Assembly (NCBI RefSeq): GCF_001629705.1
Contig: NZ_CP015378.1
Location: 3,596,001 to 3,660,000 of the forward strand
Reading direction: 5' to 3'
DNA: 64,000 nt
Source: Fictibacillus phosphorivorans
GTDB taxonomy: Bacteria; Bacillota; Bacilli; Bacillales; Fictibacillaceae
Below the pieces are notes generated by a model, which made no database searches, was not told where the DNA came from, and saw only the letters and a list, made by a program, of their open reading frames with translations. Below, one piece after another: positions 12,353-63,485 of the stretch. A program made the position numbers and the translations under genes. The stretch's first letter is position 1. Each line of letters begins with the position of its first letter.

Positions 12353-12507
12353 ACGGTACGTGTTTTTATATTTTGTTACACGTTCACCGGTAAAGGGCTT
12401 GTTTTCACCTGTGATGCATTAGTTTTCACCTGTGAATGATGTACGATCACCTGTAGACTACCATGTTTCACCGGTAAACCGTTCTTAACCACCCGAACAT
12501 GCTACCT
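12353..12507 (+). repeat. phased hairpin-array element, copy 1 (CACC type)
   Basis: Core at 12353-12381 (ACGGTACGTGTT...TTACACGTTC with the ACGTGT/ACACGT stem), then six 21-bp units at 12382-12507. Units open with words such as GTTCACCGGTAAA and TTTCACCTGTGA; the sixth is decayed. The array ends 5 bases before the DJ-1 terminator. The element fills much of the 422-bp gap between the DJ-1 gene and the lyase gene, both on the minus strand. The remaining 12142-12352 shows nothing recognisable. Confidence 0.85.
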
Positions 12508-12512
12508 CCCAT

Positions 12513-12546
12513 AAAAAAACACCCGATTCGCCATGAATGGGGTGCC
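12513..12546 (-). terminator. terminator of the DJ-1/PfpI gene
   Basis: A 10-bp stem with one mismatch (12520-12529 with 12535-12544), followed on the minus strand by seven T. Confidence 0.75.
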
Positions 12547-12563
12547 TCATTAAATACAAAACG

Positions 12564-13088
12564 CTACTTTTTCTCTAAAACCGCAACAAACTCACGCATA
12601 TAATCCGGTAGATCTGGTGGACGTCGGCTTGATACGAGGTGACCGTCGACAACAACAGGTTCGTCAATCCACTCAGCTCCCGCGTTTTCCATATCATCCT
12701 TAATTCCAGGTGTACTTGTTACTTTTTTACCGTCTAAAACTTTTGCTGAAACAAGAACCCATCCCGCATGACAGATCTGGCCGATCGGCTTTTTGTTATT
12801 CTCCATATGCTGAACCATCTCAATCACTTCTGGAAAACGGCGCAGCTTGTCCGGCGCCCAACCACCCGGAACTAAGATCGCATCGTAATCCTCTGCGTTC
12901 ACATCACCAAACGCATAATCTGCGTCAGCCGGAACACCGTACTTTCCGATGTACGTCTCTCCTGCTTTTTCTCCAACTAGTTCCACAATTGCCCCTTCTT
13001 CACGCAATCGCAAGATCGGATACCACAGTTCTAAATCCTCAAAATCATGATGCACGAGACTAAGCACTTTTTTACCTTTTAAACGCAT
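12564..13088 (-). CDS. DJ-1/PfpI family protein (type 1 glutamine amidotransferase-like)
   Basis: A 174-residue cytoplasmic protein of the PfpI/general stress protein 18 type. The nucleophile elbow is C106-H107 (GQICHAGW) and the partner acidic residue is E17 (DFEDLELW); GGWAPDKLRR marks the usual PfpI loop. Members have been described as proteases, glyoxalases or protein deglycases, and the true activity is debated. The ATG at 13088 is preferred over a GTG at 13103 because GGAGG lies 8 bases upstream of it. It is monocistronic, with its own terminator. No clear sigma-B promoter was found upstream. Family is secure; the reaction is not. Confidence 0.85.
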   Translation of the reverse strand: MRLKGKKVLSLVHHDFEDLELWYPILRLREEGAIVELVGEKAGETYIGKYGVPADADYAFGDVNAEDYDAILVPGGWAPDKLRRFPEVIEMVQHMENNKKPIGQICHAGWVLVSAKVLDGKKVTSTPGIKDDMENAGAEWIDEPVVVDGHLVSSRRPPDLPDYMREFVAVLEKK

Positions 13089-13219
13089 GTTTAACACCTC
13101 CACTATTTTTATATCCTTAATAGCGTAACATGAATCCTAGCTGAGACACTATTCTTCCACTTCCTTAGAAATGTATGGTACGATTTTTTCTATAGAAGAC
13201 AGAGGGAGATTGATTATAG

Positions 13220-13447
13220 ATGGGCAAATGCACGATCGACCACACGTTAGAAGATGTGAAGCAGAAACTTGCTGAACAATCCGCATTTATGCCGCGTGAA
13301 CTGGTGATAGAGGTTGGCGACTCTTTATCTGATGATAGTGATCAGACATATTTAAACGAAGTGTTTCATCTTTTGAAAAAGTACGACCTTGCGGATGAAA
13401 GCGAAAGAGAGAAACGAAACGGTAAATTAAGTGATTTAGTGAAATAA
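13220..13447 (+). CDS. small acidic protein of unknown function
   Basis: A 75-residue hypothetical protein with no signal peptide or membrane segment. It reads MGKCTIDHTLEDVKQKL and ends in a charged, probably helical tail (LLKKYDLADESEREKRNGKLSDLVK). The central stretch VIEVGDSLSDDSDQTYLNEVF is acidic. I do not recognise a family. GGGAG lies upstream, at a slightly long distance (about 11 bases), and a strong shared terminator follows directly, which supports a real gene. It converges on the anti-sigma gene and has no operon partners. Confidence 0.6.
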   Translation: MGKCTIDHTLEDVKQKLAEQSAFMPRELVIEVGDSLSDDSDQTYLNEVFHLLKKYDLADESEREKRNGKLSDLVK

Positions 13448-13456
13448 GAGTGATGA

Positions 13457-13500
13457 TAGCAAAAAACACTTGGGATCGTCGTCACCAAGTGTTTTTGCTT
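13457..13500. terminator. bidirectional terminator
   Basis: AGCAAAAAACACTTGG pairs with CCAAGTGTTTTTGCT. T-runs lie on both strands, between the convergent small-protein and anti-sigma genes. Confidence 0.85.
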
Positions 13501-13506
13501 TTAAGC

Positions 13507-14493: not shown

Positions 14494-14504
14494 ATCCCCA
14501 CTCC

Positions 14505-15044: not shown

Positions 15045-15263
15045 TCGTACACCCCTCCTGCTGGTTATTGGTACCTACTATGTAATACGAAGTGAATGCT
15101 GGAAATCTATCACTTGCGAAAAATATATCTATTATTTGTTAAGGAAGAAATCTTTTGGAAGTACACTACGCTATAAATCATACCTTTATTTCTTAAAGGG
15201 TTGTCTATAAAAGTTCATTGATTAAATAACGACTTAAATCTAGTGAATCGTTTCGATTTTTTA

Positions 15264-15324
15264 TTGACTCTCAAAATGAAAGCGCTTATAATTTTTATTA
15301 TCAGGTTTATCGAAACGTTTCGAT
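15264..15324 (+). promoter_or_regulatory. SigA promoter, cre site and LacI-type operator of the GH3 gene
   Basis: TTGACT (15264-15269), a 17-base spacer and TATAAT (15287-15292) form a near-consensus SigA promoter. A cre site, TGAAAGCGCTTATA (15277-15290), overlaps the -10 and matches the CcpA consensus at 13 of 14 positions. A perfect 16-bp palindrome, ATCGAAACGTTTCGAT (15309-15324), lies where transcription would begin. The same operator occurs near the GH35 gene at 36855. The rest of the 325-bp gap shows only a half-site, AATCGTTTCGATT, near 15246. Confidence 0.75.
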
Positions 15325-15369
15325 TACGTCAGACCATACACATTAAACGATATCCAGGAGGTTTTCTTT

Positions 15370-17592: not shown

Positions 17593-17746
17593 ACGGTACG
17601 TGTTTTTATATTTATTACGCGTTCACCGGTAATTGGGGTGTGACCACCTGTAAAGTGTGTTTTTTCACCGATAAATCCTCCGTGACCACCTGAAACTTGT
17701 AGACTATCACCGCTAAAAGGGCTTTCACCACCGGTAAACACTCCAC
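17593..17746 (+). repeat. phased hairpin-array element, copy 2 (CACC type)
   Basis: Core at 17593-17620, then six exact 21-bp units at 17621-17746, opening with GTTCACCGGTAA, GACCACCTGTAAA, TTTCACCGATAAA, GACCACCTGAAA, TATCACCGCTAAA and CACCACCGGTAAA. The core stem reads ACGTGT with ACGCGT, a G-U pair on this strand. It starts 9 bases after the GH3 terminator, between convergent genes. Confidence 0.9.
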
Positions 17747-21578: not shown

Positions 21579-21733
21579 ACGGTACGTGTTTTTATAATCT
21601 ATTACGCGTTCACCGGTAAATGAGTCGGTTTCACCGCTAAATGGGTAGTTTTCACCTGAAAGAAGTCTATGACCACCTGTAAAACATCACGTTTCACCTG
21701 AAAAGTCACTCCCACCATCTGAACCGCCTACAA
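21579..21733 (+). repeat. phased hairpin-array element, copy 3 (CACC type)
   Basis: Core at 21579-21607, with ACGTGT/ACGCGT arms. Six 21-bp units at 21608-21733 open with GTTCACCGGTAAA, TTTCACCGCTAAA, TTTCACCTGAAA, GACCACCTGTAAA, TTTCACCTGAAA and CACCATCTGAAC. It lies in the 405-bp gap between two minus-strand genes. No clear terminator was seen at 21740-21880; a stray CCACCTGAAACTC at about 21768 is out of phase. Confidence 0.9.
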
Positions 21734-42395: not shown

Positions 42396-42549
42396 ACGGT
42401 ACGTGTTCTTATATTTATTACACGTTCGCTCAATCAAGGCCGTTTTTCGCTCTATACACCCTCCATTTCGTTCATTGGATCCACTGTTTCGCTCAAACTG
42501 ACCAGCTTTTCGCTCAGTAGACTCCTCTTTTCGCTCACAACAACCCAAA
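42396..42549 (+). repeat. phased hairpin-array element, copy 4 (CGCTCA type)
   Basis: Core at 42396-42423. Six units at 42424-42549 open with GTTCGCTCA, TTTCGCTCT, TTTCGTTCA, TTTCGCTCA, TTTCGCTCA and TTTCGCTCA, each followed by 12 non-conserved bases. It lies in the 426-bp gap between two minus-strand genes; 42550-42649 shows no terminator. Confidence 0.9.
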
Positions 42550-42649
42550 ATACAAACTTCATCCCTCTGCTTCAGCTCCAAATCCTGCCCATTCGTCTCA
42601 TCAGCGTCCAATATGGCTCATTTGAGCGCAAGCCTAAGCACAACACACA

Positions 42650-44335: not shown

Positions 44336-44379
44336 CATGATCACCTTCATTTTCTAAGGACGGAATTTTGATCCCTTCA

Positions 44380-48285: not shown

Positions 48286-48313
48286 ATGAATTCACCTCTT
48301 AATAAGATTATGT

Positions 48314-49135
48314 TTATCCTTTTACCGCCCCGTCTGTTGCACCTGAAATAAAGTACTTTTGCAGCCAAATAAAGATTAATAAAGTAGGAATCGTCGTTAA
48401 GATGGATGCGGCAGAGATTAATTTCAAGTTAGAACCATCAAAGTTCTGTGAAAGCTGTGCGAGCCCGATGGATAACGTGTACATGCTGCTTTCTGTTGAG
48501 TTAAGCAGCGGCCATAAGTAATCGCCCCATGTGCCCATGAATGTGAAGATCGCCAGAGTTACAAGTGTTGGCTTCACAAGTGGCAATACGACGAGATACC
48601 AGACTTTAAAGCGGTTGGCACCGTCTAAGTAAGCCGATTCTTCAAGTTCTTTTGGGATACGCAGATAAGCTTGGCGCATTAAAAAGATTCCGAACGCTGT
48701 TGAAACCTGCATCACAACAAGACCGATATGTGTGTTTCTTAGTCCAAGTTCTCCTGCCAGCTGAAATAGTGGTGCCATGTATAGCTGAAACGGAACCATC
48801 ATGGTCGAGATGATGAGTGCCAGCACAACACTGCGTCCTTTAAACTCCATACGTGCGAGCGGATATGCCGCTAAACTGCAGAACAATAAGTTTAAAGGAA
48901 TCGCGATTGCTGTAATAATCGCTGTGTTCATAAAATAAAGTCCAAAGTTCGCTTTTTCAAATGCCGTTACAAAGTTTGCGAGTGTTGGGTCTTTTGGAAG
49001 TAGACTTGTGTAGATGCCTTCGCTTCCTGATTTCATTGCCATAAATAAAGTGACTAGAAACGGTCCGACCGTTAGGACAGTGATGAGAAGCATAACAGCA
49101 TAAAGCCATACTTTACTATTTTGTTTTGATTTCAT
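48314..49135 (-). CDS. CUT1 carbohydrate ABC transporter permease (MalG-like)
   Basis: A 273-residue permease with six membrane segments. The EAA loop is LEESAYLDGANRFKVWYLVVLPLVKP. It pairs with the MalF-type gene 18 bases upstream and ends 28 bases before the FAD oxidoreductase gene starts. Third permease pair in the window, dedicated to the mannoside-type locus. The ATG follows a GGGGGGAAACTC leader. Confidence 0.88.
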   Translation of the reverse strand: MKSKQNSKVWLYAVMLLITVLTVGPFLVTLFMAMKSGSEGIYTSLLPKDPTLANFVTAFEKANFGLYFMNTAIITAIAIPLNLLFCSLAAYPLARMEFKGRSVVLALIISTMMVPFQLYMAPLFQLAGELGLRNTHIGLVVMQVSTAFGIFLMRQAYLRIPKELEESAYLDGANRFKVWYLVVLPLVKPTLVTLAIFTFMGTWGDYLWPLLNSTESSMYTLSIGLAQLSQNFDGSNLKLISAASILTTIPTLLIFIWLQKYFISGATDGAVKG

Positions 49136-49153
49136 GAGTTTCCCCCCAATCTA

Positions 49154-50098
49154 TTAAACACGCAGATCGTCTTCGCGTTTGCTTGTTAACTTCATCTGTA
49201 AAAGTGATGCAGCTATGGCAAGTACGAGTAACACGATACCTGCAGCAGACGCGATACTTACGTCAAGACTCATAAATTTGTTATAGATGTACATAACGAG
49301 CGTAGTGGTCGCACCTGATGGACCACCGCCCGTTGTTAAGGCTATCTCTTCAAATACTTTCATTCCAGCAATAATCGTCATAACCGATACGAGTGTAATA
49401 GATGGCGTTAACATGGGAATTGTAATCTTCGTAAACTGCTTCCAAACAGAAGCTCCATCAATACTTGCAGACTCATAAACATCCTTTGGAATCGATTGCA
49501 GACCTGCCAAATAAATGATCATATAATAGCCGAGTCCTTTCCATACAGTTATGGCTGCTACGGCTGTTAGTGCTGTTGATGACTGAACCAGTAGATTAGT
49601 AGGACCATCGAATACGCCGAGTTTTACTAAAAACTCAGAGATAATTCCACTTTGTGAGTAAAGCATTTTCCACATAAGCGCGGCTACTACCATGGGTGTG
49701 ATAACTGGGAGATAGTAAAGAACGCGGAACGTGCCAGCTCCTCTTATTCTTTGGTTTACAAGGACTGCTAAAATCATTGGTAAAAAGACGTTTAATGGCA
49801 GGACGATCACGAGGAACGTCAGCGTGTTCATTAACGCAACCCAGAAATACTTATCTGCAAACATCTCTTTAAAGTTAGCTAGACCAACATATTCTCCAGT
49901 ACCCGCAATGATTTTATAATCCAGAAAACTCCACTTGAACGCTTCTAGAATCGGATACACTAAAAACGTAGCTAGAATCACGATAGCTGGCAGTAAAAAC
50001 AGCCATGGTGTAAGGAACTTCATGCTTAATTTTTTCTTCTTTTTTGTTGCTTTGATTTTTGTTTTTACATTTGGCAGTACAACAGGTTCTCTGTTCAT
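49154..50098 (-). CDS. CUT1 sugar ABC transporter permease (MalF-like)
   Basis: A 314-residue permease whose N-terminal 25 residues are Lys-rich and cytoplasmic, followed by six membrane segments. The EAA loop is VYESASIDGASVWKQFTKITIPML. It follows the solute-binding protein gene after a 71-base gap that contains a strong hairpin. This arrangement usually gives more solute-binding protein than permease. Confidence 0.88.
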   Translation of the reverse strand: MNREPVVLPNVKTKIKATKKKKKLSMKFLTPWLFLLPAIVILATFLVYPILEAFKWSFLDYKIIAGTGEYVGLANFKEMFADKYFWVALMNTLTFLVIVLPLNVFLPMILAVLVNQRIRGAGTFRVLYYLPVITPMVVAALMWKMLYSQSGIISEFLVKLGVFDGPTNLLVQSSTALTAVAAITVWKGLGYYMIIYLAGLQSIPKDVYESASIDGASVWKQFTKITIPMLTPSITLVSVMTIIAGMKVFEEIALTTGGGPSGATTTLVMYIYNKFMSLDVSIASAAGIVLLVLAIAASLLQMKLTSKREDDLRV

Positions 50099-50111
50099 GA
50101 TAGAACCCCCC

Positions 50112-50157
50112 TTTTAAAAAGTAGAGACTAGGCTTTTTGTAAAAAAAGCTAGTCTCT
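50112..50157 (-). promoter_or_regulatory. intercistronic hairpin between solute-binding protein and permease genes
   Basis: AGAGACTAG pairs with CTAGTCTCT and can extend through AGCTTTTT/AAAAAGCC. Only a short T5 follows on the minus strand. Likely a partial terminator or RNA-stability element. Confidence 0.65.
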
Positions 50158-50169
50158 TCATCTACTACA

Positions 50170-51498
50170 TTAGAATGTTACTTTTTCACCAGATTTTTCA
50201 AACGCTTTGTTCCACTCAGAAGCTAGTTCTTTTAACGCTTCTTTCGGAGATAGTTTGCCTTGTAAGTTTTGGATGAAGATGTTCTTTGTTGCTGTACGCA
50301 GGTCAGCACTGTTTTCCGTTGGAGGAATGAGTACTTCTGCACGGCTTAAAGACTTAGAAGCTTCTAACATACCGAATGCTTTTGGAGAATCTCCTGGATT
50401 CTTGAAGTAGTCATCTTCTAGAGATTTCTTTGTAGCTGGAAGAACCGTTCCTGCCGTTTTAGCAAATTCTAATTGGTTTTCAGCATTCGATACAAACTCA
50501 GCAAGTGCTACTGCAGCATCTTCGTTCTTTGTTTTTGCTGGAACCGCAAAGTTCATAACCGCTACGTTCACTGGTGCATCATCTGCGTTCAATGGCTGTC
50601 CTGCTTTTGACGCTTTGTACACGTCAGGTGCTCCTGATTCAATCGGTCCTAGGAATGTTACGCCGCCTTCAAGCATAGAAACGTTTCCTGCCATGTAAAG
50701 CTCTTGACCTGTTTTAATTGAACCTTCCGCTGCTTCTTGCGGAATGATTCCTTCTTTATACATCTTCTGAGTTGCCTCAAAGAATTCTAATAGATCTTTG
50801 TTATCTGCAAACTTTGCTTTCCCATCTTCAACGATAGGAGTTCCGTTCGCGATTGAAACCATTTTTTCCATGATCGTGTTTCCGTCATTGATAACCGGGA
50901 AGTATGATGGTTTACCCGTTGCGTCTTTTACTTTTTTCGCAGCTTCATAAAGCCCCTTCGTATCGGTAGGAAGCTCTGAAACGCCTGCTTTTGAGAAAGC
51001 GTCGTTGTTATACCAAGAAACAGTTGTTGTTAAGTACCATGGCAAAGCATATAGCTTATCGTCATACATACCAGACTCGTAAGGTCCTTCTACAAAAGAG
51101 TCCTTCGTCTCGTCGCTCACCGCATCTGTTAGATCTAATAGCCCACCTTGTGCTGCAATGTTAGACATATAATGAGGATTCAAGTTTACAACATCAGGAA
51201 CATCGTCACCTGTAAGCGATGTTAACACTTTTTGCTCCATCTCATTTTGAGGAACGTCTTCGATCACAACATCAAGTTTCGGATGAAGCTTTTCGAAGTC
51301 TTTTTCGATATTTTTGAAGTAGGTATCAAATGGCTCACCTGCTAATGACGCTGTCCAAAGTGTAACTTCTCCGGAAAGCTCTCCATCTTTAGCTGATCCT
51401 TTTGCCTTATCATCCTCTCCGTTGCTACACGCAATCAAACTTAGTGACAATGCTGCTGCTAGTGAACCAGAAACCAATGTTTTTGTACGTTTCTTCAC
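50170..51498 (-). CDS. family 1 extracellular solute-binding lipoprotein
   Basis: A 442-residue sugar-binding lipoprotein with the lipobox SLIACSNGED (Cys 24). The mature domain begins SGEVTLWTASLAGEPFDTYFKNIEKDFEKLHPKLDVVIED, typical of CUT1 family 1 binders; NVSMLEGGVTFLG and DAAVALAEFVSNAENQ are further family stretches. It is the first gene of the mannoside-type operon: SBP, permease, permease, FAD oxidoreductase, GH38, ROK-RpiR. The start is GTG behind GAGGGGG. Promoter and cre site are upstream. The ligand is probably an alpha-mannosyl oligosaccharide, inferred from GH38. Confidence 0.88.
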   Translation of the reverse strand: MKKRTKTLVSGSLAAALSLSLIACSNGEDDKAKGSAKDGELSGEVTLWTASLAGEPFDTYFKNIEKDFEKLHPKLDVVIEDVPQNEMEQKVLTSLTGDDVPDVVNLNPHYMSNIAAQGGLLDLTDAVSDETKDSFVEGPYESGMYDDKLYALPWYLTTTVSWYNNDAFSKAGVSELPTDTKGLYEAAKKVKDATGKPSYFPVINDGNTIMEKMVSIANGTPIVEDGKAKFADNKDLLEFFEATQKMYKEGIIPQEAAEGSIKTGQELYMAGNVSMLEGGVTFLGPIESGAPDVYKASKAGQPLNADDAPVNVAVMNFAVPAKTKNEDAAVALAEFVSNAENQLEFAKTAGTVLPATKKSLEDDYFKNPGDSPKAFGMLEASKSLSRAEVLIPPTENSADLRTATKNIFIQNLQGKLSPKEALKELASEWNKAFEKSGEKVTF

Positions 51499-51523
51499 TT
51501 TTCATTTCCCCCTCAGAAACATT

Positions 51524-51578
51524 TTGGTAAGCGTTTTCTTAATAACTCAATTATAAAAGCAAGATTAAGAGATTTCAA
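51524..51578 (-). promoter_or_regulatory. SigA promoter and cre site of the mannoside-type operon
   Basis: On the minus strand TTGAAA (51578-51573), a 17-base spacer and TATAAT (51555-51550) form a near-consensus promoter. AGAAAACGCTTACC (about 51538-51525) matches the cre consensus at 12 of 14 positions just downstream, where CcpA would block the polymerase. Confidence 0.75.
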
Positions 51579-51674
51579 TCTATTTTAAAAATTATTTTCA
51601 TTTTATATATAATTTTGAAAATAAATTTCTTTTTATTAGGTATACGTTTTTGGTAAGGTGTGGGTAAACGTTTT

Positions 51675-51828
51675 ACGGTACGTGTTTTTATAGTTGTTAC
51701 ACGTTCGCTCAGATTTTAGGCGGTTTCACTCCATCTAGCTTGGTTTTCGCTCAGTAACCCTTATGTTTCACTCAAACAAGCTTGAGTTTCACCCAGTAGA
51801 ATCAGTTTTTCACTCCAAACAGATATTT
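51675..51828 (+). repeat. phased hairpin-array element, copy 5 (CGCTCA type)
   Basis: Core at 51675-51702. Six units at 51703-51828 open with GTTCGCTCA, TTTCACTCC, TTTCGCTCA, TTTCACTCA, TTTCACCCA and TTTCACTCC, so CGCTCA has drifted to CACTC in four. It lies upstream of the mannoside operon promoter, in the 458-bp gap before the GH10-like gene. The stretch 51829-51956 holds no clear hairpin. Confidence 0.85.
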
Positions 51829-51956
51829 TCAGGTTCTTAAAACGATAAATTAATCACTTAAAATGAAAAGCTGACAACAATCGGTCACTAGATATACCGT
51901 TTGAGCCAGCGTTTCAAAATTCATTCTTTACAGCTTACAATTCCGTCCATTTTGTT

Positions 51957-54320
51957 TTATTTTTGATGATTTAGTGCGTAATTGACCCACATTTTCGCAT
52001 CAAGAAGGTCAGCTTTGATTCTTGATCCCACAACCGCATCAATTTTACCTTCTGCAACCGCCTGTTCAACCTTAGCTACAGTTGAATCAAACACGGCAGA
52101 ACTGTTCTCAATATCTTTTTTCACTGCTTGATCTAATTTCTTAATGGCTAGTTTAAGAGACACGCCGTCTTTTTCACTCACTGCACCTTTTGGAATATAG
52201 ATTTTCATTATTTGTTTTTCAATATTTTTCAATACAGTATGAGTCGCGACAATCGGCTCTTCACCAGGGTTCACTGCTTTTTCACGCCATGGCCCCTTGC
52301 CTAAAGCATCTACAGATGGCGCACTTGCTTGGCCGAAAGCAAACATGTTTACTCCAGATGTTCCATACTTTGCAGACATAACATCGCTCACGCTCGCCAT
52401 CTCACTTAAGTGATGATAGAACGAATAGATTCCCGTGTAGTACATCGTACCTTCAGGCATCAACTTCTTGCTGTCTGTTACCGTTTTTTGAATGCTGTTG
52501 AAATCATGGCCATAGGCTTGCGGGATAACACCATCGATGTCTTCTTGCCAGTCACTAATTTGTACGGCTTCTGGTCCTGGTTCTGGCGTTGCCGTCAACA
52601 TGAACTTTTTGTTCATCTCTTTTGTTTGAACGTGAAGCTTGTCAACAAAATCGTTCTCTCGTTCACGCAGCCAATCCAGCCATTTTTCCCACTCAGCAGG
52701 TGTTGTTGTTGGGGATAGCTTGTACGGATCTATTCCAGTTTTCTCTTGATAAAGCTGTTTCGTTCTCTCACTAAAGCCGTAGCTTTGCTCAAACTTATGA
52801 TGCGGGTAACGCATATAATCGATGTTAAGACCCTTGATGTCATAATCGGCCTGCATCTCTTTATAGATATCTAACATGAAATCCTGCACGTCAGGTTGTG
52901 CGATATCAAGCCAGTAATATTTGCTCGCTGTATCCGGCTGGAACGTTCCTGTTGTGTTGCTGCGCTGGATCGCTGCCCACTCTGGATACTTCGCGAATTG
53001 AGATGGTACACCTATGCTGCTTTCCCCGATCATGAATCCATCCGTCCACGCCTGGATTGTCATGCCTCGCTTTTTTCCTTCTTTTACATAAGCGTCTAAA
53101 AGGTTCTTTCCGTATTTTCCATAGTCACCGTTCGCAAAACGCGGGTGCTGTGCAGGGAGACCGTATTTCTCCATCACCTTACTCGGATAGATCGTGTATC
53201 CCCAGAAAGTTGTTTCTAAATATACCGAGTTAAAGCCCGCTTTTTCCATGCGATCAAGAACTTGTTTAACACCATCTAACGTTGTTTCTTCCGGACGGTA
53301 CCAGATTGCACGCTGCTCTGCCTTGTGAGAAGCAAGTGAATAATAGTACGCGTCATAAGCGGATTGCGTTGCTTGTCTTGTTCTATCCAACGATTTTACA
53401 GGATCGCTTGATTTAATCGCTTCAGCTTCAGCTAAAAGTGACTCAGCTTTTTGAACCGCAGCATTCGCTTCTTCAAACGCTACATCTAGATACTCTGACT
53501 TTGCTTTTTCAATTGATGACTTCGCTTGATCGATCGCTTGCTTACTTTGGTATTGGAAACTCTCAACGTCTTGTACGATTTCCACAACACCGTTTGCGCT
53601 TACATTAACCTTGGCGCCAATAATGGAGTTAGAAGAGATCCAGCTCGAATTTACTCCATGTCCACTCACGACAAAACCGTTTTTAGGAATCTTAGAGTTT
53701 CCGCCTCCAAGTTTTGTAACAAAACCGTTCTCTACTGTAATTTCATAGCCATATTGATTCGTTTTTGTGGACTCACCGAACGCCGGAGTATAGACGATCA
53801 GCTGATCTGGTCCACGAAAACCATCAAACACCGCACCGTCTGGGTTAGACGCTCGTGTAGGGTCTACCGAATTCGACTGTTTTTGTTCACGCTTTTCAGT
53901 CGGCTCTTGTAATGTAACGGTTTCTCCCGCTTCTAATTGTGTCAAAAAGTTTCGGATTTCTGTTGTTGAAATATCCCCCGTTGATAAAACGAGCCCGTTC
54001 TCTGGAATCGCGCTGTCACCGTCTGTGTCTTTTACAACACGGTATGTATTAACGCCCGTTTTTTCTAAGACGATTTCCATACTTCCTTTTTGTGTTTCGG
54101 TGTAATAACTAAATTCATCGTTAAATAGGATCAGCTTGTTATCATTGGCAAGCTGGTTCTTTCCGTTGATTGCCATTTGATCACCTGATTCATCTTTTAC
54201 AGAAAGGACATTGTAAGGTACATTTTCTTGCGCTTTAACCGAACCTGACAGATCAACAGCTGAAAATATAAGACTAGTAGCAAGGAGGGAACCCGTTAAG
54301 ACTTTAAACTTTTTTTTCAT
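51957..54320 (-). CDS. secreted family 10-like glycosyl hydrolase (GHL10)
   Basis: A 787-residue exported protein with a signal peptide at 1-30. The N-terminal part (about 35-250) has two copies of a module ending IPENGLVLSTG or IPKNGFVVSGHG. A helical stretch follows (about 255-340, QAKSSIEKAKSEYLDVAFEEANAAVQKAESLL). A GHL10 TIM barrel then spans about 340-690 (RAIWYRPEETTLDGVKQVLDRMEKAGFNSVYLET; KGLNIDYMRYPH; IQISDW-like WQEDIDGVIPQAYGHD). A helical tail at about 700-787 resembles FIVAR modules. GHL10 proteins cleave cell-wall or polysaccharide glycans, and few are characterised. It has a perfect cre site in front. It is likely a surface glycanase feeding the amino-sugar genes. Confidence 0.8.
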   Translation of the reverse strand: MKKKFKVLTGSLLATSLIFSAVDLSGSVKAQENVPYNVLSVKDESGDQMAINGKNQLANDNKLILFNDEFSYYTETQKGSMEIVLEKTGVNTYRVVKDTDGDSAIPENGLVLSTGDISTTEIRNFLTQLEAGETVTLQEPTEKREQKQSNSVDPTRASNPDGAVFDGFRGPDQLIVYTPAFGESTKTNQYGYEITVENGFVTKLGGGNSKIPKNGFVVSGHGVNSSWISSNSIIGAKVNVSANGVVEIVQDVESFQYQSKQAIDQAKSSIEKAKSEYLDVAFEEANAAVQKAESLLAEAEAIKSSDPVKSLDRTRQATQSAYDAYYYSLASHKAEQRAIWYRPEETTLDGVKQVLDRMEKAGFNSVYLETTFWGYTIYPSKVMEKYGLPAQHPRFANGDYGKYGKNLLDAYVKEGKKRGMTIQAWTDGFMIGESSIGVPSQFAKYPEWAAIQRSNTTGTFQPDTASKYYWLDIAQPDVQDFMLDIYKEMQADYDIKGLNIDYMRYPHHKFEQSYGFSERTKQLYQEKTGIDPYKLSPTTTPAEWEKWLDWLRERENDFVDKLHVQTKEMNKKFMLTATPEPGPEAVQISDWQEDIDGVIPQAYGHDFNSIQKTVTDSKKLMPEGTMYYTGIYSFYHHLSEMASVSDVMSAKYGTSGVNMFAFGQASAPSVDALGKGPWREKAVNPGEEPIVATHTVLKNIEKQIMKIYIPKGAVSEKDGVSLKLAIKKLDQAVKKDIENSSAVFDSTVAKVEQAVAEGKIDAVVGSRIKADLLDAKMWVNYALNHQK

Positions 54321-54343
54321 AATCAGTCTCCTTTTATTGTTTT

Positions 54344-54367
54344 TGGTAACGCTTTCAAATTATTATA
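54344..54367 (-). promoter_or_regulatory. -10 element and perfect cre site of the GH10-like gene
   Basis: On the minus strand TATAAT (54367-54362) is followed 5 bases later by TGAAAGCGTTACCA (54357-54344), which fits the CcpA cre consensus at all 14 positions. The -35 is weak (TGAAAA, 16-base spacing). Confidence 0.75.
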
Positions 54368-54467
54368 ATGTCTTTCTAAATTATTTTCACTATTATTAAA
54401 TTTATGAAATTTAATTTCATTTTCTTAACTAACTAGGATGGCCAAGGGGTTTCAGGTTGGAAACACG

Positions 54468-54497
54468 AAAAAAGACCCTGCTAAAAAAGGGTCTTTT
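54468..54497 (-). terminator. terminator of the nag operon
   Basis: AAAGACCCT pairs with AGGGTCTTT; a T-run follows on the minus strand, directly after nagB. Confidence 0.85.
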
Positions 54498-54508
54498 TAC
54501 TTATGTTC

Positions 54509-55249
54509 TTAGACTTTACTTTTGTATGACGAAAGAGCTTCTTCGTCTGCAAGGATCATTACGTCCGGATGAACCTTCAACGCCGATGCTGGCAGCTGCT
54601 CGTCCACTTCATCTGTAGTTAACAATTGCTTCATCACTTCTGCTTTATTGATGCCTGAGACGAGTAGTAATATCTGCTTCGCCTTTAAGATAGACGCGAT
54701 TCCCATTGTAATGGCTTGCTTTGGTACGTCTTCTAAACGTTCAAAAAATCTAGCATTCGCTTTACGAGTTGTTTCATCAAGCTCCACGATATGGGTGTTT
54801 GAATAAAAAGAAGTTCCAGGTTCATTAAATCCAATGTGCCCGTTGCTTCCGATACCAAGGATCTGGATGTCCACACCTTCGGCTTGGCTCAGCTCAACAT
54901 CATATCGCTCGCATTCAGCTTTTAAATCCTCTGCAGTTCCATCAGGAATATGAATTTGAGATTGAGGAACGTTAATATGTGCAAATAAATTTTCCTCCAT
55001 AAAATACCGATAGCTATTGGAGTCATCTGCATCAATTCCAACATACTCATCTAAGTTGAAGGTACACACCCTCTCATAAGAGGTTCCGTTACTCCTGTAA
55101 TCTTGAATCAATTCCTTATAAAGTCCGATCGGTGTTCCGCCTGTGGCAAGCCCTAGTTTGGTATCAGGCTTTGATTGAACTTTTTCAATAATGATTCTTG
55201 CTGCAATAGAGCTCATCTCATGATAATCTTTTACTTCTAAGATTCTCAT
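54509..55249 (-). CDS. nagB: glucosamine-6-phosphate deaminase
   Basis: A 246-residue NagB. It converts glucosamine-6-phosphate to fructose-6-phosphate and ammonia, the last step of amino-sugar breakdown. Key residues are D67 (FNLDEYVG), H138 (GSNGHIGFNEPG) and E143. The length is normal for the short Gram-positive form that lacks the C-terminal allosteric extension. Its ATG overlaps the nagA stop (ATGA, 4 bases), so the two are coupled. Confidence 0.95.
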   Translation of the reverse strand: MRILEVKDYHEMSSIAARIIIEKVQSKPDTKLGLATGGTPIGLYKELIQDYRSNGTSYERVCTFNLDEYVGIDADDSNSYRYFMEENLFAHINVPQSQIHIPDGTAEDLKAECERYDVELSQAEGVDIQILGIGSNGHIGFNEPGTSFYSNTHIVELDETTRKANARFFERLEDVPKQAITMGIASILKAKQILLLVSGINKAEVMKQLLTTDEVDEQLPASALKVHPDVMILADEEALSSYKSKV

Positions 55250-56433
55250 ACTTCATCACCTCTTCGGTAAGCGAGATTGCCCTTACAAAACGTCATCACT
55301 ACCTCATAGTCTTCGTCTAGTACAACAATGTCGGCATCTTTTCCTGGGGCTAGACTTCCTTTACGGTCAAAAACATTTAGTTCCTTTGCAGGGTTAACAG
55401 ACGTCATCTGAATGATGTCAGAAATGGAACAGCCCGTAAATTGCATCATGTTCTTCACCGCTGTGTTCATCTTTATGATGCTGCCAGCAAGTGTTCCATC
55501 TTTTAATGTCGCCGTCTCATGTTGAACGGTTACCTCCTGGCCGCCAAGATCGTACTGTCCATCTCCAAGACACTTTGCCCGCATCGCATCTGTCACTAAC
55601 ACGACTCTCTCATTTCCTTTTTGTTTGTAAGTTAAAGAGATGAGCTCCGGTCGAACATGGATTCCATCGGCGATCAGTTCAGTCGTTAGTTCATCGTTTA
55701 AAAGTGCTGCTCCGACAACTCCAGGCTCGCGATGGTGAAGTCCGCGCATTCCGTTATAAAGGTGAGTCACATGAGAGGCGCCGGCCTTTATTCCGGTAAC
55801 CACCTCTTCATACGTCGCATCAGAGTGTCCGATCGATGCAACGATATTTTGTTCATGAAGATAGGAGATGACTTCAAGACTTCCTTCTATTTCAGGCGCA
55901 ATTGTAACGAGCTTAATATGCCCTGAAGCTAATTTCTGCCATTGTTTAAAAAGCTCTAATTTCGGTTTGATAATCGCTCCGACAGGCTGGGCTCCCGCTC
56001 TTTTTTCAGAAATAAATGGTCCTTCAAGATGAATGCCGAGCGTTTCAGCTGTTCCTTCCACTTGTCCAGCTTCAATAAATAACCCAGCGTTTTCAAGCGC
56101 TTTTTCAATTTTGTTCTGCTCTTGCGTCATCGTCGTTGCTAGAAAGCTCGTCGTACCTTCTTGAGGCAGGACGCTCGCAATGGTTTCGAGCGCATCAAAA
56201 GTTGCGTCCATCGTGTCCGCCCCAGCTGCTCCGTGAATATGAACATCGATCATCCCTGGAACGATGTGATACGTTTCTAAAAGTTCGATAACCTCTGTTT
56301 GATCGTCACCTGGAAAAGAGTCCGTGCTCAAATCTATTATTTTTCCGTTTTGAATGGTGATTGAGCCTCTATGCACGGTTTCGTTCTCCCCATAGATCGA
56401 TGCATTCCTCAAAGTGATTTTATTCCTAACCAT
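55246..56433 (-). CDS. nagA: N-acetylglucosamine-6-phosphate deacetylase
   Basis: A 395-residue amidohydrolase that removes acetate from GlcNAc-6-phosphate in the cytoplasm. Metal-binding and catalytic residues are in place: H65 and H67 (DVHIHG), E137 (HLEGPFI), H203 (IGHSDAT), H224 (HLYNGM) and D282 (VTDAM). It is followed by nagB with a 4-base overlap and preceded by the RpiR regulator gene. With nanE upstream, ManNAc-6-phosphate can be epimerised and enter the same route. Confidence 0.95.
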   Translation of the reverse strand: MVRNKITLRNASIYGENETVHRGSITIQNGKIIDLSTDSFPGDDQTEVIELLETYHIVPGMIDVHIHGAAGADTMDATFDALETIASVLPQEGTTSFLATTMTQEQNKIEKALENAGLFIEAGQVEGTAETLGIHLEGPFISEKRAGAQPVGAIIKPKLELFKQWQKLASGHIKLVTIAPEIEGSLEVISYLHEQNIVASIGHSDATYEEVVTGIKAGASHVTHLYNGMRGLHHREPGVVGAALLNDELTTELIADGIHVRPELISLTYKQKGNERVVLVTDAMRAKCLGDGQYDLGGQEVTVQHETATLKDGTLAGSIIKMNTAVKNMMQFTGCSISDIIQMTSVNPAKELNVFDRKGSLAPGKDADIVVLDEDYEVVMTFCKGNLAYRRGDEV

Positions 56434-56465
56434 TACACTGCCTCCATTTAAAGGTTGGAAGTTAT

Positions 56466-57263
56466 CTATCTTCCCCGTGATTTGATTGCTTCTACAGTTT
56501 CCAAATATTTTTCTTCACGTTTACGATCCGTTAAAAAATACAGACTGATCTTGTCTATTAAATAAAGTGTACTTAAATCTAACCCTGTTAATAGGTGATG
56601 ATTGCGAAGTGGATGCACCGTCCACAAAATAAAATCAGAAAGTTTGGTTAGCGGGGTTTCCCCGAATGCTGTAAATGCTACCACTACAGCTCCTTTTTCT
56701 TTTCCCTTGGAAACAGACTGAAGAAGATCTACAGTTTGTCCGGAACGAGAGAAAGCAAGAATGACATCGCCTTTTTGTAAGAGTGTGCTGCGAATAATCA
56801 TTAAGTGTGGGTCAGTAATGGCTTCACAAACAAAACCCATCCTGCTTAAACGATAGTTTAATTCTTGAGCGGCTAATCCAGAACTCCCAAGTCCATATAT
56901 AAATATACGTTTTGCACTTGTCATGTAAGTGAGGGCTTTTTGAAATTGATCTCTGTCTTCAAGACCCTCCACGTCGTTCAGCATATCTCGATAAGAGGAA
57001 GATAGTTGTTCTTCAACCCCTTCTCCTTGTTTAGATTCTTTAACTTCAGCAAGTCTTACTTTCATTTCAACAAAATTCCGGCAAGAGACTTTCTTTGCGA
57101 AACGAGTGATCGAACTAATTGAAACACCTGTGATCTCAGCAAGTTCTTGTATATGACTTCGTGAAGCTTTTTCAGGATTACTTAAAATAAAGTCTGCTAT
57201 TTTCTTTTCTTTATCAGATAGCGTGGAGAAAACACTTTGTATCTCTTTTAATAATGAAGCCAT
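56466..57263 (-). CDS. MurR/RpiR family transcriptional regulator
   Basis: A 265-residue regulator: an N-terminal HTH_6 (about 1-75, HIQELAEITGVSISSITRFAKKV) and a C-terminal SIS domain (about 115-245, RIFIYGLGSSGLAAQELNYRLSRMG; DVILAFSRSGQTVDLLQSV). SIS domains of this type sense sugar phosphates. It lies 32 bases upstream of nagA and 15 bases after nanE, so it is part of the operon and probably controls it in response to an amino-sugar phosphate. It is shorter than, and separate from, the ROK-RpiR fusion at 42.6-44.3 kb. Confidence 0.88.
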   Translation of the reverse strand: MASLLKEIQSVFSTLSDKEKKIADFILSNPEKASRSHIQELAEITGVSISSITRFAKKVSCRNFVEMKVRLAEVKESKQGEGVEEQLSSSYRDMLNDVEGLEDRDQFQKALTYMTSAKRIFIYGLGSSGLAAQELNYRLSRMGFVCEAITDPHLMIIRSTLLQKGDVILAFSRSGQTVDLLQSVSKGKEKGAVVVAFTAFGETPLTKLSDFILWTVHPLRNHHLLTGLDLSTLYLIDKISLYFLTDRKREEKYLETVEAIKSRGR

Positions 57264-57278
57264 TCTTACACATCCTTC

Positions 57279-57959
57279 TTACTTTGGTATTTGAGCTACA
57301 AAACGTGCTGTGATCTGCTGCGGACGCGTGATTGCACCGCCTACAACAACTGAATAAGCTCCCATTTCAAGTACATCCCTAACCATTTCAGGTGTCATGA
57401 TGTTACCTTCTGCAATTACTGGAACAGATACTTCTTTAACTACATCTTTTAAAAACTGAAAATCATTTTCATACAATTTGTGTTTCTTAGATTCCTCTGT
57501 ATAGCCATAGAGAGTGGTGGATACACAATCAAATCCTAGTCTCTCTGCATTCTTAGCTTCTTCGATGGATGAGATATCAGCCATGAGTTGCACAGCCGGA
57601 TTCTTAGCGCTGGCGTATGAAACGAGTTCCTCCAAAGGGAGCGCATCCGGTCTTTTTCTGAGTGTCGCATCTATTGCAATCATTTCACAACCGCTCTCAA
57701 TTAATTCATCTATCTCTTTTTTTGTTGCGGTGATATAGATTTCGCTGTCATCATAATCTCTCTTCACGATTCCGATCACAGGTAGGTCTACCTCTTGTTT
57801 GATGGCGATTATGTCCTCTTTCGAGTTAGCACGTATTCCAGAGGCTCCACCTTCTTTTGCAGCAAGCGCCAATTTGGACATGATAAAAGAGCTATGAAGC
57901 GGTTCATTTTCTAGGGCTTGGCATGATACAACTAAACCTCTTTGGATTTGTTTTAACAT
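57279..57959 (-). CDS. nanE: N-acetylmannosamine-6-phosphate 2-epimerase
   Basis: A 226-residue TIM-barrel epimerase that converts ManNAc-6-phosphate to GlcNAc-6-phosphate. Hallmarks are [13 protein letters not shown] at the start, [17 protein letters not shown] (catalytic Lys and substrate loop), [12 protein letters not shown], and [34 protein letters not shown] at the end. GGAGGT lies in front of ATG. It is the first gene of nanE-rpiR-nagA-nagB. The sialic acid lyase (nanA) and a dedicated ManNAc kinase are not in the window; either ROK protein at 38.8-44.3 kb could supply the kinase. Confidence 0.92.
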
Positions 57960-58109
57960 ATGTATTACCTCCAGTTTATGAAAATACTAGTCAAAATTTA
58001 TTTATATTTGGTAATTATTATCTAACTACTAATAAAGTATCATATATCATGAGTTGAAAACAAAGGAATTTTTATTGTGCATGCAATTTTGCTCATAAAG
58101 TAAATCATT

Positions 58110-58263
58110 ACGGTACGTGTTATTTTATTTGTTACACGTTCGCTCAAACTTTGCTGGTTTTCACCCCCTACACGATCCTTTTCGCTCACTCTAACGCTGT
58201 TTTCACTCCAACGGCATAGCCTTTCACTCCCATCTGCCTCCATTTCGCTCAAAAGCCCCCGCA
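58110..58263 (+). repeat. phased hairpin-array element, copy 6 (CGCTCA type)
   Basis: Core at 58110-58137. Six units at 58138-58263 open with GTTCGCTCA, TTTCACCCC, TTTCGCTCA, TTTCACTCC, TTTCACTCC and TTTCGCTCA. It lies between the manA terminator and the nanE start. The remaining gap (57960-58109) is AT-rich with no recognisable promoter match beyond TTGACT near 57990. Confidence 0.88.
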
Positions 58264-58313: not shown

Positions 58314-58323
58314 TTTATCTTCT

Positions 58324-59410: not shown

Positions 59411-59438
59411 TTGATTTTGCTCCATATTCAGATATACT
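59411..59438 (+). promoter_or_regulatory. SigA promoter of the pxp cluster
   Basis: TTGATT (59411-59416), 16-base spacer, TATACT (59433-59438). The manA side of this divergent region holds a partial palindrome, TAAACGTTTGTTTA (about 59326-59339), of unknown role. Confidence 0.55.
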
Positions 59439-59500
59439 AGACCTTTATAAATATACAAATATTCTGATTAATTTTACATAAAAAGACAGGAGATCTGACG

Positions 59501-61212: not shown

Positions 61213-61226
61213 TTTAGGAGGTACTT

Positions 61227-62417
61227 ATGAAGAAAGAGTCAAAAGCTAGTATTCTTTTAGGCGCAGCGTTTTTGATGGCGACATCTGCCATCGGGCCAGG
61301 GTTTTTAACACAGACCACACACTTCACGTCCATTCTCGCAGCCAGTTTTGGTTTTGTTATTTTAACATCGATCATTATTGATATCGGCGCGCAAATGAAC
61401 GTATGGCGAATTATCGCTGTCTCTGAAAAAAGAGCACAAGATATTGCAAACGCCGTCCTTCCGGGCTTAGGTGTATTCCTAGCCATATTGATTGTAATTG
61501 GAGGACTTGCGTTTAACATCGGAAATATAGCCGGTGCAGGTCTTGGTCTAAACGTATTGTTCGGCGTTTCCCCTACAATGGGGGCTATACTCAGTGGGAT
61601 TGTTGCTATCTTAGTATTCGTTGTGCGTGAAGCTGGAAAAGCGATGGACCGTTTCACACAAGTTGCTGGTTTTGTCATGATCGCTTTAACCGTATATGTG
61701 ATGTTCACAGCTCAACCTCCTGTTGGAGAAGCGGTTGTAAAAACGTTCGCACCTGATACGATTGATATTTTAGCAATCGTCACATTAGTGGGTGGAACAG
61801 TTGGTGGATATATCACGTTTGCTGGAGCACACAGATTGCTTGATGCAGGAATTAAAGGAAAAGAAAGCTTAGGAGAAGTAACAAAAGGGTCGATTTCCGC
61901 AATCGGAATTGCATCCATCATGCGTATTTTCTTATTCTTAGCGGCACTTGGAATCGTTTCTCAAGGTCTTGCACTTGACCCGAAAAACCCTCCTGCTTCT
62001 GTGTTCCAGTTAGCTGCCGGAAACATTGGTTATAAAATGTTCGGTGTCGTTATGTGGGCCGCTGCCATCACATCTGTTGTTGGTGCAGCATATACGTCGG
62101 TTTCATTCATCCGTACATTCAGTGCAACATTGGAGAAATACCACAAATGGATCATCATCGGTTTTATCGCTATTTCAACCGTGGTCTTCGCACTCGTTGG
62201 AAAACCAGTAGCCATTTTAATTCTTGTAGGTGCGTTAAACGGACTCATTCTTCCAATCTCACTCGGCGTGATGTTGATTGCAGCATACAAGCCTAAGATT
62301 GTTGGAGATTACAAGCATCCGATGTGGATGACGGTTTTTGGCGTCGTGATCGTTCTTATGATGGCAGCGATGAGTGTGTATACGATGTACACAGAAGTTC
62401 CGAAACTTTTCGCTTAA
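61227..62417 (+). CDS. ycsG: NRAMP-related transporter (YcsG-like)
   Basis: A 396-residue membrane protein with about eleven helices in the NRAMP/LeuT fold. GPGFL (23-27) aligns with the first NRAMP helix, but the metal-binding DPGN is replaced by TSIL (34-37). In the sixth-helix region YITFAGAH (195-202) replaces the MPH motif. The known metal ligands (Asp, Asn, Met) are therefore absent, so it should not carry divalent metals. Its constant place beside oxoprolinase genes suggests a substrate such as 5-oxoproline or a related acid; that is inferred. RBS AGGAGG precedes ATG. Confidence 0.85.
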   Translation: MKKESKASILLGAAFLMATSAIGPGFLTQTTHFTSILAASFGFVILTSIIIDIGAQMNVWRIIAVSEKRAQDIANAVLPGLGVFLAILIVIGGLAFNIGNIAGAGLGLNVLFGVSPTMGAILSGIVAILVFVVREAGKAMDRFTQVAGFVMIALTVYVMFTAQPPVGEAVVKTFAPDTIDILAIVTLVGGTVGGYITFAGAHRLLDAGIKGKESLGEVTKGSISAIGIASIMRIFLFLAALGIVSQGLALDPKNPPASVFQLAAGNIGYKMFGVVMWAAAITSVVGAAYTSVSFIRTFSATLEKYHKWIIIGFIAISTVVFALVGKPVAILILVGALNGLILPISLGVMLIAAYKPKIVGDYKHPMWMTVFGVVIVLMMAAMSVYTMYTEVPKLFA

Positions 62418-62442
62418 CTACTTATAAAAAGGGGAGCTTGTA

Positions 62443-63234
62443 ATGAACGCACTAGACCGTTTAACTCCAGTTGAAGCCCGTGATCTAATACGCCGCGGTG
62501 AGTGGAGAAAGCCAACAAGTGGACTCTCAAACGGCTTTACGCAAGGAAATCTTGTGGTGTTACCGAAAGATCTAGCGTTTGAGTTTCTCCTGTTCTGTCA
62601 GCGAAACCCGAAGCCTTGTCCGGTGCTAGATGTAACGGAGCCTGGTTCCGCCGTTCCTGCCCTTGTTGCACCAGGTGCCGATCTACGCGTCGACATACCG
62701 AAGTATAACATTTATCGTCACGGTGAGCTTGTTGAAGAATGTACCGATATTACTTCGCTATGGAATGAAGACATGGTCGGTTTCCTGCTCGGCTGCAGCT
62801 TTACGTTTGAACATGCGTTGATGAACAATGGAATTCCTGTTCGTCACATCGAGCGAGGATGCAACGTTCCGATGTTTAAAACAAACATCGACTGTGTAAA
62901 GGCAGGCCGTTTCGAAGGTCCGATGGTCGTGAGCATGCGTCCTGTTCCTGAAAAAGACGTCGTTCGAGCCGTTCAAGTCACAAGCCGATTCCCTTCCGTT
63001 CACGGAGCGCCGGTTCATATCGGGAATCCCGAAGCGATCGGGGTTTCTGATCTCTATCAACCAGATTTCGGTGACCCTGTTCAGATTCATGACGGTGAAG
63101 TTCCTGTGTTTTGGGCATGCGGAGTAACGCCTCAAGCCGTCGCGATGCATGTGAAACCTGAGATCATGATCACGCACGCTCCCGGGCATATGTTCATTAC
63201 GGATGTTCGTGATGAAAAGTATGGGGTTTTGTAA
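62443..63234 (+). CDS. ycsI: DUF1445 putative hydro-lyase (YcsI)
   Basis: A 263-residue cytoplasmic protein. Family stretches are TPVEARDLIRRGEWRKPTSGLSNGFTQGNLVVLP, FLLFCQRNPKPCPVLDVTEPG, FLLGCSFTFEHALMNNGIPVRHIERGCNVPMFKTNI, and PVFWACGVTPQAV...ITHAPGHMFITDV. A relative acts as a D-glutamate cyclase in mammals, giving 5-oxo-D-proline, which fits its place beside oxoprolinase genes. It ends the cluster, with GGGGAG in front of ATG and a strong terminator after it. Confidence 0.9.
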   Translation: MNALDRLTPVEARDLIRRGEWRKPTSGLSNGFTQGNLVVLPKDLAFEFLLFCQRNPKPCPVLDVTEPGSAVPALVAPGADLRVDIPKYNIYRHGELVEECTDITSLWNEDMVGFLLGCSFTFEHALMNNGIPVRHIERGCNVPMFKTNIDCVKAGRFEGPMVVSMRPVPEKDVVRAVQVTSRFPSVHGAPVHIGNPEAIGVSDLYQPDFGDPVQIHDGEVPVFWACGVTPQAVAMHVKPEIMITHAPGHMFITDVRDEKYGVL

Positions 63235-63256
63235 GGCGAGATAGTTAAATGAGGAG

Positions 63257-63290
63257 AGAATCTACTTTGGTAGATTCTTTTTTCTTTTTT
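63257..63290 (+). terminator. terminator of the pxp cluster
   Basis: A 9-bp perfect stem (63257-63265 with 63270-63278) followed by a long T-run. Confidence 0.9.
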
Positions 63291-63331
63291 AGAGAGCTTT
63301 TTTAGGTGTGAGGATGACTATTTGGGTACAA

Positions 63332-63485
63332 ATGTTGTTCTTAGCGGTGGTGACGAGCGTTTTATCGGTGAAAAAGTAGCGATCATAGGTGCTCGCAGCT
63401 ACGTTACCGGTGAATACGTTGCGTTTACAGGTGGAAACAAGCACATTAGCGGTGAACGTGTAACAAATATAAAAACACGTACCGT
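63332..63485 (-). repeat. phased hairpin-array element, copy 7 (CACC type, inverted)
   Basis: The only copy in minus orientation. Core at 63485-63458, six units from 63457 down to 63332, opening (minus strand) with GTTCACCGCTAA, TTCCACCTGTAAA, ATTCACCGGTAA, GAGCACCTATGA, TTTCACCGATAAA and CACCACCGCTAA. A seventh, decayed unit may follow. It fills the gap between the terminators of the convergent ycsI and PfkB genes. Confidence 0.9.

Follow-up and report, generated by a model that had tools for sequence, protein, structure and literature searches.

The intergenic DNA of Fictibacillus, a soil bacterium, carries a genus-wide interspersed element of about 150 bp that has spread by copying and then been kept. 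We tentatively read it, from its sequence pattern, as an array of sites for a sequence-specific protein, an array that could border transcription units. Seven such elements lie in the window, by which we mean the whole stretch of 64,000 nucleotides analysed here, and direct checking of sequence and alignment found each of them where the preliminary description had placed it and built as stated there, with a core of 28-29 bp followed by six units of 21 bp. Copies 1 to 6 are on the plus strand. In copy 1, a 29-bp core with the inverted repeat ACGTGT / ACACGT (12353..12381) leads into an array of the CACC-GTAAA type (12382..12507); copy 2, whose 28-bp core (17593..17620) is sited between convergent genes, and copy 3, with a core of 29 bp (21579..21607), have arrays of the CACC type (17621..17746 and 21608..21733, respectively). 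Copy 4 combines a 28-bp core (42396..42423) with units of the CGCTCA type (42424..42549), and the 28-bp cores of copy 5 (51675..51702) and copy 6 (58110..58137) precede arrays of the CGCTCA / CACTC type (51703..51828 and 58138..58263). Copy 7 is inverted, with its 28-bp core at 63458..63485 and its CACC-type array at 63332..63457 of the minus strand. The window thus holds two unit types, one CACC-GTAAA-like in four copies and the other CGCTCA-like in three (arrays starting at 42424, 51703 and 58138), and a single motif type is repeated inside each window array; in a few relatives (L130, for example) the array switches back and forth between two unit variants.

Genome-wide we found 31 copies, the seven of the window included. 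Well above what chance would give, the exact core 12-mer occurs 26 times in the 4.23-Mb genome versus once for a reversed control, and a profile search of the genome with a sequence model trained on the 31 copies, which matches those 31 by construction, returned no additional full-length copy; up to E = 1 it gave 19 other partial matches, mostly second halves of known arrays. When consecutive units reaching at least 75% of the consensus score were counted, the number six, which had been called exact, proved to be the mode (25 of 31 copies) but not a law, since four copies had five units and two a borderline seventh. Likewise, the absence of indels noted for the seven window copies holds for these but not genome-wide, as one copy in 31 (121002) has a 1-bp register shift, and in relatives the arrays have undergone 1-bp shifts, an insertion of 10 bp in one case, and losses of whole 21-bp units. 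Random unit numbers with frequent indels, a pattern that would speak against the plan, were absent among the 31 copies. The information per unit, from the core outwards, was 25.6, 18.0, 14.5, 13.7, 15.4 and 9.7 bits (26 copies). Conservation thus peaks in the first two units and is weakest in unit 6, but it declines unsteadily, unit 5 exceeding units 3 and 4.

With coordinate 0 assumed to be the origin, 28 of the 31 copies fall in the origin-proximal half (p = 5e-6), and their strand tracks the chromosome arms, with 2 plus and 10 minus copies on the right and 15 plus and 4 minus on the left. Such a distribution would suit a site for chromosome organisation or segregation, similar to Noc or RacA sites or to a plasmid parC array. 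Nevertheless, we hold this function to be distinctly improbable, for the strand bias follows gene orientation (25 of the 31 arrays are turned towards the 3' end of a gene), the terminus block holds other array families, and the same bias would arise if the DNA close to the origin were older and syntenic.

The element was found in 17 of 18 genomes of the genus and in none of 16 other genomes of the family; elements were located by their core together with a loose count of motifs, and copies without the motif are therefore under-represented. Between orthologous elements, compared as one pair per locus and unfiltered for type or shift, identity was 0.86 in the motifs versus 0.69 in the spacers, with the motif ahead at 24 of 26 loci, and the same unfiltered test across six related genomes gave 0.89 versus 0.72 (motif higher in 129 of 132 pairs). 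Core identity was 0.96 and unit position 6 was near-invariant (0.99) between orthologs in a set of 97 pairs whose elements were chosen by motif, a choice that favours motif identity, so that the lower, unfiltered figures are to be preferred. In 160 ortholog pairs, indels per 100 substitutions numbered 7.1 in core plus array versus 16.6 and 18.3 in the two flanks of 60 bp, where the array figure is inflated by the forced alignment of unlike motif types and the flanks include some coding sequence; gaps of 21 bp recur in these alignments. A motif-blind scan of the 335 intergenic gaps of at least 110 bp in this genome yielded 29 arrays with a period of 20 or 21 and two with a period of 18, and zero arrays at nine other periods between 16 and 27; shuffles gave two. 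Together, the fewer indels than in flanks and the almost exclusive periods of 20 and 21 in this genome support the earlier suggestion of a constrained two-turn spacing, from which we infer, as is natural, that a protein may bind on one face of the DNA.

Arrays of this kind exist in about nine motif families. Among the 29 scanned arrays nine were of the ACGG type and 20 belonged to other families (12 in convergent and 8 in co-directional gaps), two GAGCG arrays not being ACGG, and the AATCC family has its own core at the array end in about half of 28 arrays as judged by eye, and in nine by a scripted pattern. At the orthologous site of copy 2, five motif types were present in eight genomes, a count that took in only genomes with an element there. 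We also followed upp, tuf and serS, picked since this genome carries the element there: on the 3' side, arrays of period 20/21 with differing motifs were present in 17 of 18 species for upp and in 16 of 18 for tuf (two of these known by their core, with a sub-threshold score), and for serS an array was present in only 9 of 18, one of which (G005) is reduced to the core and about two units. Thus, array position is not always kept, as the serS result indicates.

Arrays were most frequent in convergent gaps (15 of 42), as compared with 13 of 225 co-directional (p = 7e-7) and 1 of 68 divergent gaps. In co-directional gaps the orientation of the element is biased, 15 versus 4, but not fixed, and arrays occur on both sides of terminators. 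A regulon of one function was rejected, as the 30 proteins scanned of the nearest 62 are of unrelated kinds (serS, tuf, upp, glycosidases and a kinase among them); one neighbouring protein compared with PHROG was uninformative. Because convergent gaps are without promoters, their bias could be mere tolerance, and such tolerance could account for the location of a functionless tandem repeat that grows in steps of 20-21 bp wherever it is harmless. The near-perfect, seemingly young arrays at 859283 and 922249, the loss of units between orthologs and the nine of 18 species without an array behind serS are in line with this explanation; we find it highly doubtful, however, given the uniform unit number, the repeated presence of arrays behind upp and tuf, and the excess of motif over spacer identity at 24 of 26 unfiltered loci.

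Turning to the core, which had been described as a hairpin, its inverted repeat does pair in 96.5% of cells, yet two-sided changes are absent and the pairing does not exceed that of a shuffle control, so that the hairpin is at most putative; RNA folding of four copies gave z values from -0.1 to -2.0. An RNA element, in which the array would act as part of the 3' untranslated RNA, or else as antisense RNA, by binding a multi-subunit RNA protein or by setting mRNA decay, could draw on three observations, namely that certain arrays start no more than 25 bp from a stop codon, that of the 34 departures from perfect pairing in the core 23 read as G-U on the plus strand, and that folding of the whole array on the reverse strand slightly beats re-dealt units (3 of 40 shuffles as low). 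It is improbable in our view, as forward-strand folding was no better than shuffled (13 of 40 as low), spacer-spacer pairing did not go past composition, the core behaves as described above, Rfam covariance models gave 0 matches at the gathering threshold within the window, and an RNA would not be expected to keep its period fixed at two turns of DNA. A gradient from G/T to C/A runs along the array; the spacer-spacer pairing that it suggested was rejected for want of any excess beyond composition, and transcription-coupled skew as its cause is unsupported, unit 1 being G/T-rich in co-directional and convergent settings alike. A coding repeat was judged unlikely by eye, with stops in the unit frames and a period of 20 in sister arrays.

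The spacers had been said to share no similarity between copies, which is correct for most loci, but a few loci do share spacers. Near-identical recent duplicates, which would have told against the element, are absent in this genome (best spacer match 0.50 in 435 pairs), and spread by copying is visible in other strains. Same-genome loci with common spacers reach an identity of 0.69-0.81 versus a background of 0.31, and their wider flanks are dissimilar; we therefore conclude that the element has spread by copying. Its start is sharp near -4 and its far end is blurred, and one strain shows similarity past both ends. These copies at unlike flanks are also what a non-autonomous mobile element would leave, its core being a transposon terminus and its units the sites for a Tn7-/Mu-like transposase or a rolling-circle nuclease whose gene would lie elsewhere or have been lost. 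The terminal core with tandem sites of about 21 bp may resemble Tn7-/Mu-like ends, and an inverted pair with outward cores (262628/265993) is retained in relatives. On the other hand, neither a second terminal inverted repeat nor a target duplication was evident by eye in the 31 copies, copies stand at orthologous places with their motifs kept, and there was no match in viral contigs to the exact core pattern or in plasmids and phages to one 181-bp query, so that we regard a mobile element as unlikely, though worth weighing. Carriage by phage or plasmid was rejected on the outcome of the same queries.

In the protein-array reading that we prefer, a sequence-specific protein would nucleate at the core and then fill the units along one DNA face, giving a rigid or wrapped patch, as the conservation maximum in units 1 and 2 and minimum in unit 6 may suggest. 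With less certainty, the patch might mark the border of adjacent, chiefly convergent, transcription units, and might do so by blocking read-through RNA polymerase or by retaining supercoils. Arrays of other motif families could serve the same border, each presumably with its own protein, and with families interchangeable in this manner position would be kept while the motif changes. Numerous motif families would, however, require numerous proteins, which counts against a protein array. A role in DNA wrapping for gyrase downstream of transcription has been proposed for the BIMEs of E. coli, and by analogy the phased sequence itself might wrap the DNA at such places for gyrase or an enzyme like it. 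The period that stays fixed though the motif varies, the length near 100-126 bp and the convergent gene ends would agree with such a topology site, but shape alone cannot account for near-invariant letters (unit position 6, 0.99) or family-specific cores, making it very improbable. More tentatively than the protein array itself, we suggest that the arrays may form a new class of chromosomal punctuation, with 5-6 sites spaced at two helical turns and retained genus-wide at particular gene ends, the motif repeatedly replaced and each family having a fast-evolving DNA-binding protein to itself. Were position and spacing under selection while the motif changes, this would be an unrecognised layer of chromosomal border marks, present, if real, in about one in twelve scanned gaps (29 of 335), and it would offer a handle on the separation of convergent transcription and on the joint replacement of site and protein.

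A search of open-licence literature, mainly titles and abstract openings, gave no recognised description of such arrays. REP/BIME sequences of enterobacteria are likewise found in many copies at gene 3' ends with a possible role in topology, but REP units are palindromes, whereas those of Fictibacillus are asymmetric direct repeats with a phase of 20-21 bp. The ends of Tn7- and Mu-like transposons combine a terminus with asymmetric binding sites of about 20-22 bp in tandem; in contrast, the Fictibacillus element is one-ended as seen and occupies dozens of conserved chromosomal positions, and the 30 neighbouring proteins scanned included no transposase. Plasmid iterons and parC centromeres also have several direct repeats in helical phase, but the Fictibacillus arrays are scattered around the chromosome at the 3' ends of genes, and no replication or partition family appeared among the same 30 proteins, out of 62 nearest neighbours. 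TIGR arrays, as far as the account considered here goes, have repeats of 8-12 nt with variable stretches of about 9 nt between them, two repeats alternating beside a tas gene (PMC12045711). They resemble the present arrays in having short repeats split by variable stretches, but Fictibacillus spacers drift between orthologs and the window arrays are without two alternating repeat sequences. We rejected a TIGR-Tas identity on the missing alternating pair in window arrays and on the Nop domain (PF01798), which had no match in the 18 genus genomes and matched in 4 of 14 control genomes, all archaea, by a search that a divergent Nop could escape. A further parallel is offered by the bcr1-bcr18 repeats of the Bacillus cereus group, described, in the parts of the accounts considered, as intergenic, 100-400 bp long and spread like a mobile element (PMC6542083, PMC3446304), with a mean of 39 bcr1 copies per strain (PMC6542083) and with a TTTAT motif and MITE-like traits in bcr1-3 (PMC6542083, PMC3446304). 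The Fictibacillus element has interspersed copies that have spread, as MITEs and bcr1-like repeats do, its spacer-sharing loci having unlike wider flanks, and by those descriptions it also shares with bcr1-bcr18 the intergenic setting, the restriction to one group and the tens of copies per genome; what sets it apart, going by the same parts of the bcr accounts, is its phased unit array and its change of motif.

The positions, the 28-29 bp cores and the six units apiece that the preliminary description had assigned to the seven ACGG elements of the window (a core followed by an array of about six 21-bp units, each a conserved motif plus a variable spacer) were all confirmed. The genome to which the window (3,596,001-3,660,000) belongs is one contig of 4,230,665 bases, and searching it with the core pattern at up to three mismatches, together with inspection of places found, gave 31 copies; of the three-mismatch places, two more that were inspected, 1768570 and 2015766, lack such an array and were excluded. 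A profile model built from the 31 copies recovered its 31 and yielded zero additional full-length matches in the genome. When consecutive units scoring at least 75% of the consensus were counted (background passes at a rate of 0.5%), the claim of exactly six units held for 25 of 31 copies, but four have five units and two a borderline seventh; extra isolated unit matches beyond a gap occur in three of the 31. The seven window arrays had been described as free of indels; among the 31 genome copies, one, at 121002, is shifted by one base. Elsewhere, a copy at position 3207 of the stretch labelled L049 has a 10-bp insertion, one helical turn, separating units 1 and 2. By unit type, 27 of the 31 copies are CACC-GTAAA-like and four CGCTCA-like; three of the latter are consecutive in the window (42396-58263) and the fourth lies at genome position 3692800. 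Spacers of the ACGG family are G/T-rich beside the core and become C/A-rich towards the distal units (0.76 to 0.38 in 106 elements), alike in convergent and co-directional settings.

Among named genomes, the core pattern was found in at least 120 stretches, and the 80 matches listed are all from Fictibacillus. With the profile model, the element was detected in 17 of the 18 genus genomes (7 to 86 matches per genome, E <= 1e-5), genome G001 being the sole one without a match, and in none of 16 other family members. A second, separate family of phased arrays, AATCC, gave pattern matches in 12 of 397 genomes of the order, every one in this genus.

For measuring conservation, 181 distinct elements were clustered on the similarity of their flanks; they fall under 15 genome labels, some of which may represent strains of a single species. 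A first identity test started from 105 pairs of the same type whose flanks are orthologous on both sides. After removal of eight with shifted units or low identity between units, the remaining 97 gave 0.92 for the motif (in all these tests, six of the 21 unit positions), 0.77 for the spacer and 0.96 for the core. Because this test selected elements by motif, it was rerun without type or shift filter on elements whose detection still required the core plus a loosely set number of motifs, and motif versus spacer identity was then 0.77 versus 0.58 over 212 pairs (motif higher in 202), 0.89 versus 0.72 over 132 pairs among six related genomes (higher in 129), and 0.86 versus 0.69 with one pair per window-genome locus (higher in 24 of 26). 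The constrained spacing proposed at the outset is supported by the indel rate, which over 160 pairs was 7.1 per 100 substitutions in core plus array versus 16.6 and 18.3 in the 60-bp flanks; 21-bp gaps recur between these aligned orthologous elements.

As for copying between loci, different loci of the window genome have 0.31 of their spacer letters in common (sd 0.07, best 0.50). Spacer identity is 0.70-0.81 among four loci of F. phosphorivorans AMY 19.1.2 and 0.69 in an inverted pair of genome G006; for the 20-bp type, motif letters fall in spacer columns and inflate such figures, but the aligned copies of that type agree over their whole length. In AMY 19.1.2 (L124, L133, L136, L154) the element is part of a longer repeat, about 220-260 bp in size, that is shared between copies, similarity extending past the element, and comparison of flanks up to 1.5 kb gave no inter-flank match reaching 1e-15.

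A motif-blind scan of 335 intergenic gaps of the window genome, taken from the window and two 400-kb blocks of which one was known beforehand to hold five ACGG copies, gave a best period (score >= 0.52) of 20 or 21 in 29 gaps, 18 in two, and no other in the range 16-27; there were two in shuffled controls, and the scan is incomplete, recovering five of the seven window elements. The motif families seen by eye were CACC (with CGCTCA), AATCCACGAG, GGACAGATTA, GTGGACAGTAAA, AATTAAGTCG, AATCACATAAAA, TTCACGGTAAT and, at 20 bp, TTTATAGGTCTTCA and TTTGTGAGCGATTC; the two GGACAG forms possibly make up a single family. About eight non-ACGG families of period 20 or 21, whose letters differ from those of the window element, occur in intergenic gaps of 700,001-1,100,000 and 1,900,001-2,300,000 of the window genome (L294-L313 and L274-L293). 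Near-perfect 20-bp arrays near 859283 (L301), overlapping a possible 112-aa frame, and 922249 (L305) are probably young, and an AATCC-type array at 2626171-2626322, long and built of almost identical 21-bp units, apparently reflects recent tandem amplification. Two other family genomes had period 20 or 21 in 4 of 71 and 5 of 77 gaps, plus one array of period 26. Among 151 gaps in fragments of 19 other order members, a twentieth fragment being too short for use, periods 16, 20 and 26 were found once each, so that none is outstanding there.

With gene contexts that are approximate because genes were called as simple longest frames, arrays of period 20 or 21 occupied 15 of 42 convergent, 13 of 225 co-directional and 1 of 68 divergent gaps (p = 7e-7 for convergent versus co-directional, 0.2 for co-directional versus divergent). 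Of the 31 ACGG copies, 25 are oriented with the array toward a gene 3' end, and 10 lie between convergent genes. Separately, 28 of 31 are in the origin-proximal half of the genome if the origin is at coordinate 0, and strand bias follows the chromosome arm.

At the site of the window element with its core at 17593, surveyed in genomes carrying an element there, eight genome labels have elements whose flanks are orthologous on both sides; their units are of CACC-GTAAA, CGCTCA, CACGCA or CACCCC type, or of a CGCTCA variant with a period near 20 bp. Presence was tested at three gene ends, picked because the window genome has an element there, in a scan in which array-free regions scored at most 0.49 at any of nine periods. 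Arrays of period 20 or 21 lie on the 3' side of upp in 17 of 18 genomes, with the ACGG core in 13 and other motifs in the remaining four, including G001. Of 30 genomes from other genera, three score 0.50-0.58, all within one genus represented by seven genomes, and none outside it reaches 0.50. The tuf-rpsJ gap holds the ACGG element in two species and a different 21-bp array (score >= 0.50) in 14 of the other 16 genomes, G001 and G009 having none. On the 3' side of serS an array is present in 9 of 18, reduced in G005 to a core and roughly two remaining units. A separate, longer repeat of GTTGATTTCCG-like and CTTTCCGCGGGG stretches follows tuf in several species, including G001 (L237, L240, L242, L249, L251, L253).

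Information per unit is 25.6 bits in unit 1, 18.0 in unit 2 and 9.7 in unit 6, flat between. High core-side conservation, maintenance of the register and motif conservation are consistent with a putative protein that would start at the core and then occupy the array along one face of the DNA. We suggest that the array may have a border function at gene ends, a role consistent with placement at 3' ends and with the occurrence of differing motif families behind one and the same gene.
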